Source: Rhodopirellula bahusiensis (GTDB lineage: Bacteria; Planctomycetota; Planctomycetia; Pirellulales; Pirellulaceae). From it: a DNA stretch of 64,000 nucleotides. The notes beneath the pieces are model-generated. The model was not told the origin of the DNA. It saw nothing but the letters and a program-made list of their open reading frames with translations, and ran no database searches. Below, piece by piece: positions 10,523-16,239 of the stretch; the stretch's first letter is position 1, and each line of letters opens with the position of its first letter. The position numbers and the translations under genes are program-made. The stretch covers positions 1-64,000 of the forward strand of contig NZ_NIZW01000029.1 in assembly GCF_002727185.1 (NCBI RefSeq), given 5' to 3'.

Positions 10523-11015
10523 TGGTGGTTTCCTGGTCGAGGAGCGAGGACAAATGTTTCTTGATGCGGTGCAGGCGGACGCCAACGTTGGTCACTGAAA
10601 GACCGAGTGTTTCGGCGATGTCACGGTGCTGGATTCCGTCGAGCATCATCAAGGCGAGCGAACGATCGATGGGATTCAGTTCGGCAATCTTTTCGTACAA
10701 CCAATCCACGCGAGGATCCGGGTTGGGCTCGTTCGCGATCGGTTCTTCGGCAAGTGTTTGTCGCTTTTCGCGATGCTTGGAATCTTTGCGAGTCCAGCTG
10801 ATGGCGGTGTACAACGCGACTCGGTAGATCCAGGTGGACTCGGCGACATCGGGGTTCAGGTTTGGAATCGAACGCCAAAGCTGCAATCCAATTTCCTGCA
10901 ACAGGTCGTCTTGGTCATGTCGGTTGCGAGCGAAAGAACGAGCGACTTTGAGCAACAAGCCTTGATGTTTCTCCAGCCAAACCTGGAGCTGTCGTTCCTG
11001 CTGGCGTGGATTCAT
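10512..11015 (-). CDS. ECF-type RNA polymerase sigma factor
   Basis: A 167-residue sigma-70 family protein. Region 2 has RNRHDQDDLLQEIGLQLWRS and TWIYRVALYTAISWTRK; region 4 has LNPIDRSLALMMLDGIQHRD followed by the helix-turn-helix IAETLGLSVTNVGVRLHRIK. The short linker and absence of regions 1 and 3 are typical of ECF factors. Overlap with the downstream membrane-protein gene suggests that protein controls it. Confidence 0.9.
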   Translation of the reverse strand: MNPRQQERQLQVWLEKHQGLLLKVARSFARNRHDQDDLLQEIGLQLWRSIPNLNPDVAESTWIYRVALYTAISWTRKDSKHREKRQTLAEEPIANEPNPDPRVDWLYEKIAELNPIDRSLALMMLDGIQHRDIAETLGLSVTNVGVRLHRIKKHLSSLLDQETTNEL

Positions 11016-11181
11016 AAGAGATCATGGAAAGCGAGTGAGAGACTTGGTGACTCTGATGAACTAGTCGCGAGTGAGTGGCGGGATCTTACAAAGAAGAGCA
11101 GACTCCCCTCAATTTTTGAACGTTTTCCGGGGGACGAGAGCCGTGGTAGGGAAAGCTTCCGTATCGTCGACGCGAATCTTG

Positions 11182-11217
11182 AAACGCGGAGATGCGGAGG
11201 AGCGGAGTTTCGCGGAG
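11182..11217 (+). repeat. GGAG-rich boundary repeat, copy A (5' box)
   Basis: The sequence AAACGCGGAGATGCGGAGGA continuing to CGCGGAG, with GGAG recurring every 8-12 bases. The same box precedes units B (11635-11671), C (12315-12351) and D (12779-12815), and occurs again at 15520-15556. Its reverse complement follows each unit. Confidence 0.85.
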
Positions 11218-11264
11218 ATTGAGGGGAGAGTGTATTGAATCGGTGGTGTTTGAGAGGGAATCAA

Positions 11265-11436
11265 ATGAAGTTGGCCGATGTGGTCATTGGTGGAGCGATC
11301 GAAGTGCTTCGTTGGCTTGGTCTTCTTTGCGTTTGATGAATCTAAATGCTTGCTGCTCAACAATTTTCACGAAGCAAAGTTCTTCGACGGTCTACATCGC
11401 ATCGTCAAGCGATACGGAGGTGGCAAACCGAGTTGA
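11265..11436 (+). pseudogene. GxxExxY gene remnant, copy A (internally deleted)
   Basis: The ATG at 11265 starts MKLADVVIGGAIEVLRWLGL, clearly homologous to the start of the intact gene at 11709, but a stop follows after 23 codons at 11334. The next bases match the last 30 or so codons of the intact gene (NFHEAKFFDGLHRIVKRYGG in a shifted frame). The central 220 bp or so, which encode GLLEHVY and the nuclease-like residues, are absent. It is boxed by 11182-11217 and 11446-11484. Confidence 0.8.
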
Positions 11437-11445
11437 TCGCTGACC

Positions 11446-11484
11446 TCTCTCCGCGAAGCTCCGCCCCTCCGCATCTCCGCGTTT
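11446..11484 (-). repeat. GGAG-rich boundary repeat, copy A (3' box)
   Basis: CTCTCTCCGCGAAGCTCCGC continuing to TCTCCGCGTTT, the inverted form of the box at 11182-11217. Homologous 3' boxes follow copies B (12112-12151), C (12576-12615), D (13032-13073) and E (15317-15356). Between each 3' box and the next 5' box lies a conserved spacer of about 150-165 bp containing ATGACGATTCGGGCCAGCCG. Confidence 0.85.
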
Positions 11485-11634
11485 TAAATTACCCGCTGGT
11501 TTGGAATGTCGTCATTGGATGACGATTCGGGCCAGCCGCCCGGAGGAAAAAGCTTGCCGTCTTTCCGATGGGTGGGTTGGAATCTTTGACCTCCGACCAA
11601 TTGCAACGGGGCGAGCTTGATCGATGCGAATCTT

Positions 11635-12151
11635 GAAACGCGGAGTGGCGGTGGAGCGGAGCTTCGCGGAGATTGGAGTGAGAGCGTTTCGAGCCATTGG
11701 AGATTGAGATGGAACCGAATGATGTGACTGACGTAATCATTGGAGCCGCGATCGAAGTGCATCGCCGACTCGGCCCGGGGCTCTTGGAGCATGTCTATCG
11801 GCGTTGCCTGGCCTACGAGCTTCGAAAGCGAGGCTTGGCGGTTGTGGAAGAGAAACCGGTCGCAATTGATTACGACGATCTGCACGAACCGTGTGCTTTT
11901 CGAGCTGATCTATTGGTGGAGGAACTGGTCGTCGTTGAACTCAAAGCGAAAACTCAAATCCACCCCATCGATAAAACGCAGACTCTGTCTTACCTGCGTT
12001 TAATGAATCTCAATGTTGGGCTGCTCATCAATTTTCACGAAGCAAAGTTGATCGACGGTCTGCATCGCATCGTCAACCGATACGGCGGCCCCAAACCAAG
12101 TTGACGCTCACCTCTCTCGGCGACCCTCCGCTCCTCCGTTTCTCCGCGTTT
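11635..12151. mobile_element. Complete GxxExxY unit B with inverted boundary boxes
   Basis: The only full-length unit in the array: 5' box 11635-11671, gene 11709-12104, 3' box 12112-12151. The boxes are inverted copies of each other (AAACGCGGAGTGGCGG... against ...TCTCCGCGTTT). From 5' box to 5' box the spacing is 453 bp for A-B, 680 bp for B-C and 464 bp for C-D, so unit B is about 220 bp longer, matching the region missing from A and C. Mobility is inferred from this arrangement; no target-site duplication was identified. Confidence 0.55.
11709..12104 (+). CDS. GxxExxY family protein (PD-(D/E)XK nuclease-like), intact copy
   Basis: A 131-residue protein, full length for the family. It has IIGAAIEVHRRLGPGLLEHVY, the signature that gives the GxxExxY name (shown here with one extra flanking residue less than the limit), then FRADLLVEELVVVELKAKT, which supplies the Asp and Glu-x-Lys of a PD-(D/E)XK-like active site, and a C-terminal NFHEAKLIDGLHRIVNRYGG. 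The start ATG at 11709 is preceded by GGAG at 11699; an upstream TTG (11697) is possible. The biochemical role of the family is not established. Four degraded copies lie in the same array. Confidence 0.9.
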   Translation: MEPNDVTDVIIGAAIEVHRRLGPGLLEHVYRRCLAYELRKRGLAVVEEKPVAIDYDDLHEPCAFRADLLVEELVVVELKAKTQIHPIDKTQTLSYLRLMNLNVGLLINFHEAKLIDGLHRIVNRYGGPKPS

Positions 12152-12387
12152 AAAGTTGCCTGCTGGTTTGGAATATCGTCATTGCATGGCCATTCGTGGA
12201 TGACGATTCGGGCCAGCCGCCTGGAGGCAAGCATTGCCGTCTTTCCGAAGGGCGTGTTGGAATCTTTTACGGCCGATCAATTGGAACGTGGTGTTTTTGA
12301 TCGACGCGAATCTTGAAACGCGGAGTGACGGAGGAGCGAAGCTTCGCGGAGTTGGGGTAGGAGCGTTTCGAGCTGGTGGGAATTGAG

Positions 12388-12570
12388 ATGGAATCGAATG
12401 ACGTGACTAACGTAATCATTGGAGCCGCGATCGAAGTGTATCGTTGGCTTGTTCTATTTGCGTTTGATGAATCTGGACGCTTGCTGCTCATCAATTTTCA
12501 TGAAGCAAAGTTGATCGACGGTCTGCATCGCATCGTCAACCGATACGGCGGCGCAAAACCGAGTGGATGA
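12388..12570 (+). pseudogene. GxxExxY copy C, in-frame internal deletion
   Basis: An open frame of 60 codons joins the N-terminus (MESNDVTNVIIGAAIEVYRW) directly to the C-terminus (LLINFHEAKLIDGLHRIV). The missing centre has nearly the same breakpoints as in copies A and D. Because the deletion keeps the frame, a short protein lacking GLLEHVY and the ELK motif could still be made. Boxes at 12315-12351 and 12576-12615 flank it. Confidence 0.8.
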
Positions 12571-12851
12571 CGCACCTCTCTCCGCGAAACTCCGCTCCTC
12601 CGTTTCTCCGCGTTTAAAGTTGCCCGCTGGTTTGGAATGCCGTCATTGCGTGACCATGCGTGGATGACGATTCGGGCCAGCCGCCCGGAGGCAAACATTG
12701 CCGTCTTTCCGAAGGGCGTGTTGGGATTTTTTACGGCCGATCAATTGGAACGTTGTGTTGTTGATCGACGCGTCTATTGAAACGCGGAGAAACGGAGGAG
12801 CGGAGCTTCGCGGAGTTGGGGTAGGAACGTTTCGAGCTGGTGGAAATTGAG

Positions 12852-13026
12852 ATGGAACCGAATCAAGTGACTGATGCAATCGTTGGTGCAGCGATCGAAG
12901 TTCATTTCCGACTTGGTCTCATCTGCTTTTGATGAATTTTGATGTTGCCTGCTCATTAATGTTTGCAAAGCGAAATTGAGCGATAGCCAATGTTGTCAAC
13001 CGATACGCGGGCCCAAGCCAAGTTGA
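12852..13026 (+). pseudogene. GxxExxY copy D, internally deleted and frameshifted
   Basis: It starts MEPNQVTDAIVGAAIEVHFR and stops after 26 codons (TGA at 12930). Degenerate C-terminal sequence follows, ending at the TGA at 13024. It has the same central deletion as A and C but more point decay. Boxes are at 12779-12815 and 13032-13073. Confidence 0.75.
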
Positions 13027-13245
13027 CGCTCACCTCTCTCCGCGAAGCTCCGCTCCTCCGTCACTCCGCGTTTCAATGCTTCTGTGTCCGCTTGCGTAGT
13101 TGACGTTGAGTTTGCGGGTTGTTTGGGAGGGACTGCCACCACTCCGCAGCCACGCTCATGTTGAGCGGGTCTTGTTGTCGGCGAAATCAAAATGATGCCG
13201 ATGAAGCGTGTGACCCCTACGATAGGAATCACTGGAATGCTCAAA

Positions 13246-15180
13246 ATGAACCGTTCGACCCATGTCAGTCTTTCATCCCGTTCGCGTCGCTTACGACGAA
13301 ACATCATTCGGGGGTTGGTCGCAGGTTGTTTGACATTCGCCACGCCTTTGGCCGTCCAATCCGCAGACATTGAGGTCGTGAACACAGACGACAACGGAGA
13401 CGGGTCGCTCCGTCAGGCGATCGCCAATGCCGAAGCGGGTGACCGGATTGTTTTCAACATTGCCGGAGGTGGCACAATCAACTTGGCGTCTGATCTACCG
13501 GAAATCACCGACAACCTCTCATTCGCAAATCAGAACGTGGCGGCCGTCATTATTGATCGCCAAGGAAGGGCACCTCTCTCTGTGACAGGAGGCATCATCG
13601 ATTTGGGTGAGTTGCAGGTCATGAATTCCGGTGGTGGACTTGTCGTTGACATTGAACTTTCCACGGCAGCCACATTGATTGGCAACGATGAACAAATCAC
13701 TGCCAACGTGCAGGCAGCAGGGACCATCGCTCCAGGTGACAGCAGTGCCGCGGGCAGCATCGGTGAGCTGATCATCGATGGAGATCTGGATGCGAGTGAT
13801 GCGACCATTCAGGTTGATGTGAACGGTGCCGGATCTCCAAACGATCTGGTTCAAGTCAGCGGGAACGGGACGGTGACCGACGCGACGCTGAGGCCCAACT
13901 TCATGGGCTCCAACTATTCGATCGGAGATACCTTCACCGTGTTCACTGCGGGGACTGGTTTAACGGGAACGCTGGCCAATTCTGCCGATGTGTTTCAGCT
14001 GTCTTCGAATCCATTCTTGGAAGCCATCATCAACTCCAATCCAAACGACCTGCAGTTGTTGATTCAAGACAACGGCGAATCCTTCACGACGGTCCTTCAG
14101 GGTTGCGGGCAAATGGGGGCGGTCACCGAGATCGATCGATTGAGGACCGCGGGGACCGTGCCTCAAATGAACGCGATCAGCAGTTTGCGGAACAGTTCAA
14201 CGTTAGAAATCAACCAAGCGGTGGGACAGTTGGCAGGTGCGATCTATCCATCTCTGGTGGACGCGGAGATCAACGAAGTTCACAACAGTATGAACGGGAT
14301 TCGCGATCGAGTGCTGTTGCAGCAAACGGATCTCGGCACGAGCGGTCATTGGTCACCCTGGGTTCGTGGCTATGGCATGACGTTGGACACCGGCGGCGAC
14401 GCTTGTATGGCGGAAGGCTATCGCCGAACGGTCGGCGGGATCGAACTGGGGACAGGATATCTGGCCGCTTCCGGTCTTGGGGTGCATGGCTTTGCACAGT
14501 TGGGCGCTTGCGACACGGAGATGAATTCGCTTGGTCAAGGTGCGGACACGGATTCGTATCGCTTCGGCGGAACCGTGCAATATGTCGGCGACTATTTATA
14601 CGGGTTTGGCTCGGGAGGGTTTGGCATACAAGAGCATTCGATTGATCGTTCCATGTCAGTTTTGCAACCTGGAACCACCGCAACCAGTGAGTCGGATGGT
14701 ACCGCCCAATTCGCCTCGGTGGAGTTGGGCACCGTTCACCGAAGTGAGGATTGGTTGTGGTTGTCGTTTGTTTCGTTGCAGGGTGTGCAAGCGGACTTGG
14801 ATGGCGAAACGGAATCGGGAGATTCTGATTTCAGGTTGACTGCCAGCGACGTGGACGGCGAGTCATTGCGAAGCATGGTGGGGGTCTCTTTGGCGGGAAC
14901 GAATCAAACCGGGCTCGGGCCCGCGACCACGCAGCTGCGATTTGGTTGGCTGCATGAGTTCCTGGATGACCAGCAGTCGGGAATCAATGCAGTTCAGGCT
15001 GTCGCTCCTGTCGACTTTTTGGCGCAAAGTGCGGACACGGGCCGCGATTGGTTGTCGCTGGGGGCTCAGCTTGATTGGGGGTTTGTGCTGGGCGGTCAGT
15101 TCACGCTGGCTTACCAAGGCAACCTGAATAGCGACTCGACGTTCCAAAGTGGCATGGTCGGAACTCGCTGGATTTGGTGA
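13246..15180 (+). CDS. Autotransporter-type outer-membrane protein
   Basis: A 644-residue protein from the ATG at 13246 (MNRSTHVSLSSRSRRLRRNI); ATGs at 13192, 13195 and 13201 are alternatives. The signal peptide has an Arg-rich n-region, the core GLVAGCLTFATPLA and a likely cut after AVQSA. The passenger begins with VNTDDNGDGSLRQAIANAEA, a start shared by beta-helical surface proteins, and has low Cys. From about residue 380 the C-terminal 260-270 residues alternate polar/aromatic (WSPWVRGYGM, YRFGGTVQYVGDYLYGFGSG) and end in the aromatic pattern TRWIW, as in autotransporter beta-barrels. It should be secreted to the cell surface by type V export. It sits between GxxExxY copies D and E and has no operon partner. 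Confidence 0.8.
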   Translation: MNRSTHVSLSSRSRRLRRNIIRGLVAGCLTFATPLAVQSADIEVVNTDDNGDGSLRQAIANAEAGDRIVFNIAGGGTINLASDLPEITDNLSFANQNVAAVIIDRQGRAPLSVTGGIIDLGELQVMNSGGGLVVDIELSTAATLIGNDEQITANVQAAGTIAPGDSSAAGSIGELIIDGDLDASDATIQVDVNGAGSPNDLVQVSGNGTVTDATLRPNFMGSNYSIGDTFTVFTAGTGLTGTLANSADVFQLSSNPFLEAIINSNPNDLQLLIQDNGESFTTVLQGCGQMGAVTEIDRLRTAGTVPQMNAISSLRNSSTLEINQAVGQLAGAIYPSLVDAEINEVHNSMNGIRDRVLLQQTDLGTSGHWSPWVRGYGMTLDTGGDACMAEGYRRTVGGIELGTGYLAASGLGVHGFAQLGACDTEMNSLGQGADTDSYRFGGTVQYVGDYLYGFGSGGFGIQEHSIDRSMSVLQPGTTATSESDGTAQFASVELGTVHRSEDWLWLSFVSLQGVQADLDGETESGDSDFRLTASDVDGESLRSMVGVSLAGTNQTGLGPATTQLRFGWLHEFLDDQQSGINAVQAVAPVDFLAQSADTGRDWLSLGAQLDWGFVLGGQFTLAYQGNLNSDSTFQSGMVGTRWIW

Positions 15181-15221
15181 GCGGTGACTTGGGCAGGTGG
15201 CTGGCACCTTCCGATGGCACT

Positions 15222-15308
15222 GGACTGCTGATCAATTTTCACGAAGCAAAGTTGATGGACGGTCTACATCGCATCGTCAACCGATACGGAGGAGGCAAAC
15301 CGAGTTGA
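15222..15308 (+). pseudogene. GxxExxY copy E, C-terminal fragment
   Basis: Only the last 28 or so codons of the family remain (LLINFHEAKLMDGLHRIVNR, then YGGGKPS and TGA). It is followed by a 3' box (15317-15356), the conserved spacer and another 5' box (15520-15556) that has no gene copy behind it. The missing 5' part coincides with the end of the autotransporter gene 42 bases upstream. Confidence 0.8.
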
Positions 15309-15624
15309 TCGCTGACCTCTCTCCGCGAAGCTCCGCTCCTCCGTATCTCCGCGTTTAAAGTTGCCCGCTAGTTTGGAATGTAGTCATTACGTGACCATTC
15401 GTGGATGACGATTCGGGCCAGCCGCCTGGAGGCAAACATTGCCGTCTTTCCGAAGAGTTGGTTGGGATTTTTGATGGCCGATCAATTGCGACGGGGCGTG
15501 GTTGATTGACGCGAATCTTGAAACGCGGAGTGGCGGAGGAGCGGAGGTTCGCGGAGATTGGGGTAAGATCGTTTAAGCTGATCGCTTACTTCAACCAACG
15601 CCGAATTCTTGGTCTCCCCGTTCC

Positions 15625-16239
15625 ATGTCTGTTGAAAACGAATCACCGCGACGGATCGGGCGGCCTCGGAACTTTGATCGCGACGAGACTTTGCTCGCGA
15701 TCGTCGATGTGTTCTGGCGGCTCGGGTACAACCAAACCAGCTTTCGCGAATTGGAAGCCGCGACCGGTGAAGGCCGCCAAAGTTTGGTGAACGCGTTCGG
15801 TGACAAGGCGGCTATCTTTGAAAAAGCCATTCAGTGCTACATCGATCACCGCGTTAATGAAGTGATCGAGTTGCTTCGCGGCGAAGGCGAACCATTGGAC
15901 CGAATCGCGAAAGTGTTGGCTCGATGGGAAGCCGATGCAAAGGCACCCGACCATCGCGGATGCTTGTTGGTCAACACGGGCGGTGAGATTGGCCCGAAAA
16001 ATGCGGCCATCGCGGATCGGATGGCAAACTCGACCCAACGTTTGGTGAACGAGTTTGCCAAGACTTATCAACAAGCGATGAAAACAGGTGCGATCGCGAC
16101 CAAACCATCCGCGAAATCGTTGGCTCGGCTCACCGTCGCGTTGGGCGATGGGGCGTTGTTGCAGGCTCGCGTCAGTGGCGATGCAGCAGCCGCGAAGCAA
16201 ACGCTGGTGACGCTGGCGGAATTGATTCGCAGTCGCTGA
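15625..16239 (+). CDS. TetR-family transcriptional regulator
   Basis: A 204-residue protein. The N-terminus RIGRPRNFDRDETLLAIVDV leads into the TetR helix-turn-helix TSFRELEAATGEGRQSLVNA and FGDKAAIFEKAI; the C-terminal ligand domain includes DHRGCLLVNTGGEI, typical of the TetR_C subgroup found with short-chain or hydrolase genes. It is 110 bases upstream of a codirectional alpha/beta hydrolase gene, and a palindrome in between (16297-16316) is a candidate operator. The 5' box of the repeat array ends 69 bases before its start. Confidence 0.9.
   Translation: MSVENESPRRIGRPRNFDRDETLLAIVDVFWRLGYNQTSFRELEAATGEGRQSLVNAFGDKAAIFEKAIQCYIDHRVNEVIELLRGEGEPLDRIAKVLARWEADAKAPDHRGCLLVNTGGEIGPKNAAIADRMANSTQRLVNEFAKTYQQAMKTGAIATKPSAKSLARLTVALGDGALLQARVSGDAAAAKQTLVTLAELIRSR

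Follow-up and report, generated by a model that had tools for sequence, protein, structure and literature searches.

REP/RAYT systems consist of a single gene accompanied by its own short inverted repeats and by geneless hairpins with conserved arms and a variable loop, in extragenic positions. The RAYT gene is old and low in copy number, and the repeats are private to the enzyme lineage. Some of these features are described in PMC3733652. We examined a 64,000-nt stretch of Rhodopirellula bahusiensis DNA (hereafter the window, meaning this whole stretch; home genome G000, 7,784,569 bases) that carries an array of GxxExxY genes with inverted boxes. GxxExxY units share with REP/RAYT an extragenic position, an old, low-copy gene between private inverted repeats, and geneless hairpins whose arms are conserved and whose loop varies. 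They differ in having a PD-(D/E)XK nuclease rather than an HUH/Y1 protein, and iterated words rather than palindromes tagged with GTAG or CGTC; neither tag was seen by eye in the window boxes or in the other boxes compared.

The intervening sequences (IVS) of 23S rRNA genes resemble a GxxExxY unit in being about 430 nt long and in holding a small open reading frame (ORF) within terminal inverted repeats, and a Coxiella study notes an existing suggestion that IVS elements are mobile, with the ORF as a component (PMC4990558). They differ in their unrelated S23 protein, their 7-nt words, their location in rRNA genes and their removal from the transcript by RNase III. Insertion sequences and miniature inverted-repeat transposable elements also have terminal inverted repeats around one gene, and geneless derivatives; unlike them, GxxExxY units have iterated arms and no DDE or other known transposase. 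A clean target duplication was looked for and not found in comparisons between different species. Cas4/RecB nucleases share with GxxExxY proteins a weak profile similarity and the D, ExK and QxxxY motifs, which we take to be those of RecB/Cas4-type nucleases, but GxxExxY is a minimal domain with boxes of its own.

The results below point to a REPIN/RAYT-like single-gene element in which a Cas4-like nuclease would recognise its own boxes, a reading to which we give a probability of roughly 0.6. Recognition by the protein of its own iterated arms, as predicted from sequence comparison, is well supported.

Inverted iterated arms at GxxExxY genes

Arms were sought in 400 nt on each side of a gene as ungapped inverted matches (scoring +1/-2), with marks at 13 and 15. 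Matching arms were found at 50 of 62 Planctomycetota GxxExxY loci at a score of at least 13 and at 42 of 62 at a score of at least 15. When the arms of different loci were paired, 4 and 4 of the 62 passed these marks, and a reversed control gave 4 and 2. A set drawn from many phyla comprised the best 80 of 575 loci, some of them from Planctomycetota; three were dropped for short flanks, and arms were present at 53 of the 77 usable loci at the lower mark and at 40 at the higher, whereas cross-paired arms passed in 4 and 0 cases and the reversed control in 1 and 0. The rplT (L20) control showed no arms in 25 loci, five of 30 having been dropped before counting for lack of full flanks, and its cross-pairing gave 2 and 1.

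A GxxExxY arm is a short word repeated every 8-10 nt and inverted across the gene. Among 80 arms of at least 20 nt, the best lag was 8 or 9 in 66 and 10 in nine (75/80 together). The words CACAGAG, CACGAAG, CGCAGAG and CGCGGAG were common, in many cases with ACC on the outer side. Another word set combined an 8-nt period with an outer TCACGC, and other word types were ACAGGAT, CGAAA, CTAATC, CGATGAACG and CACAGAT.

Four intact GxxExxY genes, the window's included, and one partial gene were found in the home genome. Locus L001 carries CACGAAG words, L002 CACAGAG words and L005 CRCGRAG-like words, in each case on both sides, with tandem arrays as well at L001 and L002. A genome-wide search for AAACGCGGAGNNNCGGAGGAGCGGAG with up to three mismatches gave 11 matches, ten in the array and the eleventh at C1:348714, on a different contig, in a hairpin that stands alone. 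The reversed pattern gave none, so the boxes are not due to chance. The original prediction had made its case depend on boxes at GxxExxY genes elsewhere. Inverted arms proved to be usual there; the literal AAACGCGGAG is specific, in this genome, to the array and one solitary hairpin. What generalises is the architecture of inverted iterated arms and not AAACGCGGAG, other loci carrying other words.

Across 294 sampled Planctomycetota genomes, a strict 9-nt box pattern had 1945 matches, compared with 39 for the reversed pattern. GxxExxY genes occur in 139 of these genomes, and also in other phyla and in archaea. The pattern was present in 96 of the 139 gene-bearing genomes (1795 matches) and in 37 of the 155 genomes without the gene (150 matches), an enrichment with a Mann-Whitney p of 1.9e-18, not corrected for phylogeny.

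Other dispersed repeats were noticed during these comparisons. Near-identical boxes in G374 (L306-L317) lie, at 11 of 12 places, within a longer dispersed repeat that carries one box; no matching hairpin was seen by eye in this repeat, though one of these boxes (L289) was counted as a hairpin in the 30-locus sample described below. Two more families of short dispersed repeats, REP-like by eye, were noticed in the flanks of L220 and L227 (composite positions 607-664 and 2704-2798); their copies are numerous in congeners, G413 and G417 among them.

Covariation of box word and protein

On a protein tree of 140 rows, about half of whose forks (68/137) are open, three box types required 11 changes on the 104 arm-bearing rows, compared with at least 22 in 500 shuffles. 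The division into non-RAG and RAG types required two changes compared with at least seven (100 rows), and the 8-nt TCACGC type six compared with at least ten. In these tests the label of L116 was assigned manually, and one of them omitted four AT-rich arms.

A stronger test used multi-copy genomes, in which protein identity was correlated with box similarity (r=0.552; 32 loci in 11 genomes, 452 between-genome pairs), six of 38 loci having been dropped for an arm score below 13 and the L222 arm having been set by hand from one-sided hairpins. Permutation of boxes within genomes gave a mean r of 0.165 and a maximum of 0.437, and none of 5000 permutations reached the observed value. Box similarity was 0.255 at protein identity below 0.35 and 0.748 for the six pairs above 0.65. 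Three genomes followed copy by copy had co-resident genes that were mostly 40-60% identical and mostly had different words, and box similarity reached 0.6 or more in only 4.5% of 44 within-genome pairs. Tree test and within-genome permutation agree that the box word covaries with the protein: the word tracks the protein, not the genome.

A shared intergenic site, between a cusB-like and a cusA-like gene, has different elements in different genomes. One GxxExxY type with RAG-type, ACCGCAGAG-like boxes is present in G374, G239 and G333, and another type with AACCACAGATTNCACAGAT-like boxes of the CACAGAT type in G285 (intact), G270 and G407 (both decayed); G374 and G285 belong to one genus. Further states of the site include a decayed copy with a 3' box (G224), boxes of the second kind with no recognisable gene (G188) and 23 nt with a box-like remnant (G312), and a broken gene of the second type lies near it in G206, where the flanks are 2.3 kb apart. 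In another family, an orthologous element compared between G213 and G152 had all six units changed alike, CGCAGAG-like in one and CGCGAAG-like in the other, with proteins 79.6% identical. Word and protein are thus coupled whatever the genome and, at the cusB-cusA-like site, whatever the position.

Modules, mechanism and alternatives

Among 22 related locus pairs, three (L018/L020, L018/L028 and L048/L050) match from box to box and then stop, over 430-445 nt at 73-81% identity, in different genera and unrelated flanks; in another 12 pairs the match covers the gene or a portion of the element. In support of the candidate cassette, gene and boxes can form a discrete module in unrelated surroundings, to judge from the three pairs. 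Geneless derivatives exist as well. G411 has a 99-nt hairpin where the home genome has the L002 array and gene, and the solitary hairpin with the window's word, 94 nt long, occupies one site in five species (G000, G411, G410, G417 and G413), its arms conserved and its loop variable.

In the mechanism that we favour, a PD-(D/E)XK/Cas4-like nuclease of ~120 residues would recognise its own pair of inverted arms by their iterated word, and would probably do so through repeated contacts about one DNA turn apart. It would act on arms that are folded back or extruded as a cruciform, and gene-bearing units and geneless hairpins might thereby be copied or kept. By analogy with REPIN/RAYT, the protein would bind and cut the boxes, with a fold-back as the structure concerned, so that units are moved or amplified. 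Since a unit of about 430-500 bp holds one gene, the nuclease is the only candidate enzyme of the unit. In the window, a vertically inherited element may have become a tandem array by unequal recombination, leaving one intact gene and the offspring of a deleted copy.

Several observations weigh against this reading. Binding, cutting and movement of boxes are drawn from analogy, none of them having been seen, and template switching could also keep the arms matched. Arms fell below threshold at 12 of the 62 Planctomycetota loci and 24 of the 77 many-phyla loci, a few of the passing arms are AT-rich and non-iterated, and at L004 in the home genome ACACTAATC hairpins lie on one side only. Because co-resident copies are mostly 40-60% identical, recent transposition of the gene within a genome was not seen in the three genomes compared, and seven of the 22 related locus pairs share flanks and were inherited in place. 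In the search for empty sites and target duplications that had been called for, gene-free sites opposite occupied ones were found, one of them exactly empty (G364 compared with G270) and ambiguous, and no clean empty site with a duplication was seen at occupied and gene-free sites among genomes that belong to different species. Nine of the 37 gene-free, box-bearing genomes hold five or more boxes. Finally, among 30 box loci, one per genome, five lay beside GxxExxY, five were hairpins and 20 were neither (an equal partner was found at 19 of 600 random positions). Many boxes are therefore solitary, or their partners were missed by the criterion used; a few in GC-rich coding sequence may be chance matches.

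The nuclease might instead be kept by the host for genome maintenance or regulation, processing hairpins or recombination intermediates while the units hardly move. Such a role would fit the low ratio of nonsynonymous to synonymous substitution (dN/dS, 0.018-0.029) at a fixed locus, an array and a solitary hairpin held at one place across species, and co-resident copies that are old and divergent. It sits poorly with discrete modules in unrelated flanks across genera, with the patchy spread of the gene (139/294 Planctomycetota genomes) and with elements that decay, also at the shared site, and we consider it unlikely. A passive origin of the repeats by template switching and slippage with unequal recombination, the nuclease being unrelated to the boxes, would suit the tandem arrays at L001 and L002, the deletion common to several slots and the arm matches that sometimes extend past the box into the flank (L057, L061 and L150). 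It does not predict a word that tracks the protein across genomes, two proteins with two words at one site, or the finding of most boxes in gene-bearing genomes, and appears improbable.

Genes of the S23/four-helix-bundle family (TIGR02436; loci L155-L184, two of 30 dropped before counting for lack of full flanks) had inverted iterated arms at 25 of 28 loci, against none on cross-pairing and one in the reversed control. The period was 7 nt in 15 of 21 arms, with words that differ per locus. G000 and G415 carry one S23 element (L226 4380-4955) that is missing from the same place in G412, G409, G416 and G417. This shared architecture, built of 7-nt words, and the S23-like and REP-like hairpins at a site where relatives have a GxxExxY element, raise the idea that another enzyme (S23-type, RAYT or host) mobilises the boxes, with GxxExxY as a passenger such as a defence nuclease. 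However, S23 boxes have neither the period nor the sequence of GxxExxY boxes, the word tracks the nuclease within GxxExxY, and the typical 430-500 bp has no room for another gene; we regard this account as very improbable. The intergenic site of L331 (L372, L373 and L374) has a GxxExxY element in some genomes and S23-like heptamer or REP-like hairpins in others, and it may be a landing place that palindromic elements share.

The gene occurs in many bacterial phyla, and together with its inverted, protein-specific word it looks like a type of very small genetic element that has not been described before. We tentatively suggest, at somewhat less than even odds, that units of about 430-500 bp rank with the smallest mobile elements that are autonomous, with a Cas4-like nuclease as sole enzyme, which would read the iterated word through repeated contacts. 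Word and protein would coevolve, so that several families of elements, each excluding the others, coexist on a single chromosome. S23 elements, as relatives of the 23S rRNA IVS, would be a second lineage, with an unrelated protein, that reached the same plan. A family named only after its motif, found in 139 of 294 Planctomycetota genomes, other phyla and archaea, would gain a testable function, and many short tandem words in these genomes would be accounted for (the 1945 pattern matches in 294 genomes). The covariation would also set proteins beside their DNA words in a table made by nature, which could teach how a minimal nuclease reads DNA. GxxExxY is named in open-access papers in single mentions. 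No account of the boxes was found in open-access full text, a search that did not cover subscription papers, preprints or the comment text of TIGR04256.

The intact protein and the array in the window

The intact gene of the array, in slot 2, starts at ATG 11709 or alternatively at TTG 11697. Its protein matched TIGR04256 (GxxExxY) at 135.2 bits (cut-off 35) and PF13366 (PDDEXK_3) at 129.5 bits (cut-off 22); at E 0.001 these were its only matches, and none was to a known transposase family, HUH/Y1 included. The E of GxxE, the D, ExK and QxxxY are all conserved columns. Similarity to the Cas4 profile was weak (E 0.026), as it was in 44 of 68 GxxExxY relatives at E <=1 (best 7e-4); PF13366 was matched by all 68. 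No solved structure gave a sequence match at E <=1. Carriage on phages or plasmids was tried as an explanation and rejected: tblastn with one query protein, from L050, hit 7 of 72,556 plasmid records and 0 of 50,697 phage records, and PHROGs gave none.

The left flank of the array was matched in three of 13 genomes of the genus, the window's own included. In G410 the array has three slots (decayed, intact, decayed) and no autotransporter ORF, and in G411 one decayed slot and an intact gene are followed by the contig end. The slot 2 gene had a dN/dS of 0.018-0.029 among the three congeners, with 0.019 for G410 and 0.018 for G411 (122 codons); it is under strong purifying selection, at a dN/dS of about 0.02. 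The locus shared by congeners and the strong conservation of its gene show an old array that was inherited in place, and sequence comparison indicates that it was already present before the three species split. Unequal recombination between tandem repeats is enough to account for five slots here and three in G410. This explanation, which had been named as one that would undo the prediction of a mobile element, suffices for the copy number of the local array.

The array spans window positions 11179-15557 and comprises five GxxExxY slots, ten boxes and four spacers (Table 1). The gene slots lie where the original prediction had placed them, slot 2 intact and slots 1, 3, 4 and 5 decayed. A 3' box follows all five, and an inverted 5' box precedes four, the 5' part of slot 5 being lost; the tenth box is an orphan 5' box that closes the array. 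The conserved spacer proposed between units is present in four copies, and an autotransporter ORF takes its place after slot 4. One internal deletion is common to slots 1, 3 and 4 and to both decayed slots of G410 in the slot alignment. Given this single shared deletion, slots 1, 3 and 4 look like the offspring of one deleted copy, not like separate decays.

Table 1. Features of the GxxExxY array, in window coordinates.
Feature	Position	Strand	Basis
5' box, slot 1	11179..11218	+	inverted repeats I1, I2, I11; pattern match
Slot 1, decayed GxxExxY copy, internal deletion	11219..11447	+	slot alignment; repeat families D4, D7
3' box, slot 1	11448..11487	-	inverted repeats; pattern match
Spacer 1	11488..11632	.	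repeat families D3, D8
5' box, slot 2	11633..11672	+	inverted repeats; pattern match
Intact GxxExxY gene (slot 2), 131 aa	11709..12104	+	profiles, conserved columns, dN/dS
3' box, slot 2	12115..12154	-	inverted repeats; pattern match
Spacer 2	12155..12312	.	repeat search
5' box, slot 3	12313..12351	+	inverted repeats; pattern match
Slot 3, internally deleted copy	12352..12579	+	64-aa open frame; slot alignment
3' box, slot 3	12580..12618	-	inverted repeats; pattern match
Spacer 3	12619..12776	.	repeat search
5' box, slot 4	12777..12815	+	inverted repeats; pattern match
Slot 4, decayed copy, deletion as in slots 1 and 3	12816..13036	+	slot alignment
3' box, slot 4	13037..13076	-	inverted repeats; pattern match
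Autotransporter-domain ORF inside array	13192..15180	+	PF03797 97.5 bits
Slot 5, 3' remnant of GxxExxY copy	15181..15319	+	repeat family D4; slot alignment
3' box, slot 5	15320..15359	-	inverted repeats; pattern match
Spacer 4	15360..15517	.	repeat search
Orphan 5' box, array end	15518..15557	+	inverted repeats; pattern match

The autotransporter ORF encodes 662 aa, and the stretch around it (13084-15225) had no match in the 16-kb region of G410 that was compared. An Rfam scan of positions 11000-15700 found no rRNA. Its sole hit was RF04209, a plant microRNA precursor, at up to 39.4 bits (cut-off 230), and a known RNA family was rejected as an identity for the locus. The weak RF04209 matches are full-length and lie at 11439-11683, 12106-12362, 12570-12826 and 15311-15568; a long fold-back with GGAG-like repeats is visible in the alignment, and kinship in sequence is unconvincing. 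In slot 3, the deletion leaves an open frame of 64 aa (12376-12570) that keeps the two termini of the protein and lacks the catalytic core, the D and ExK residues included.

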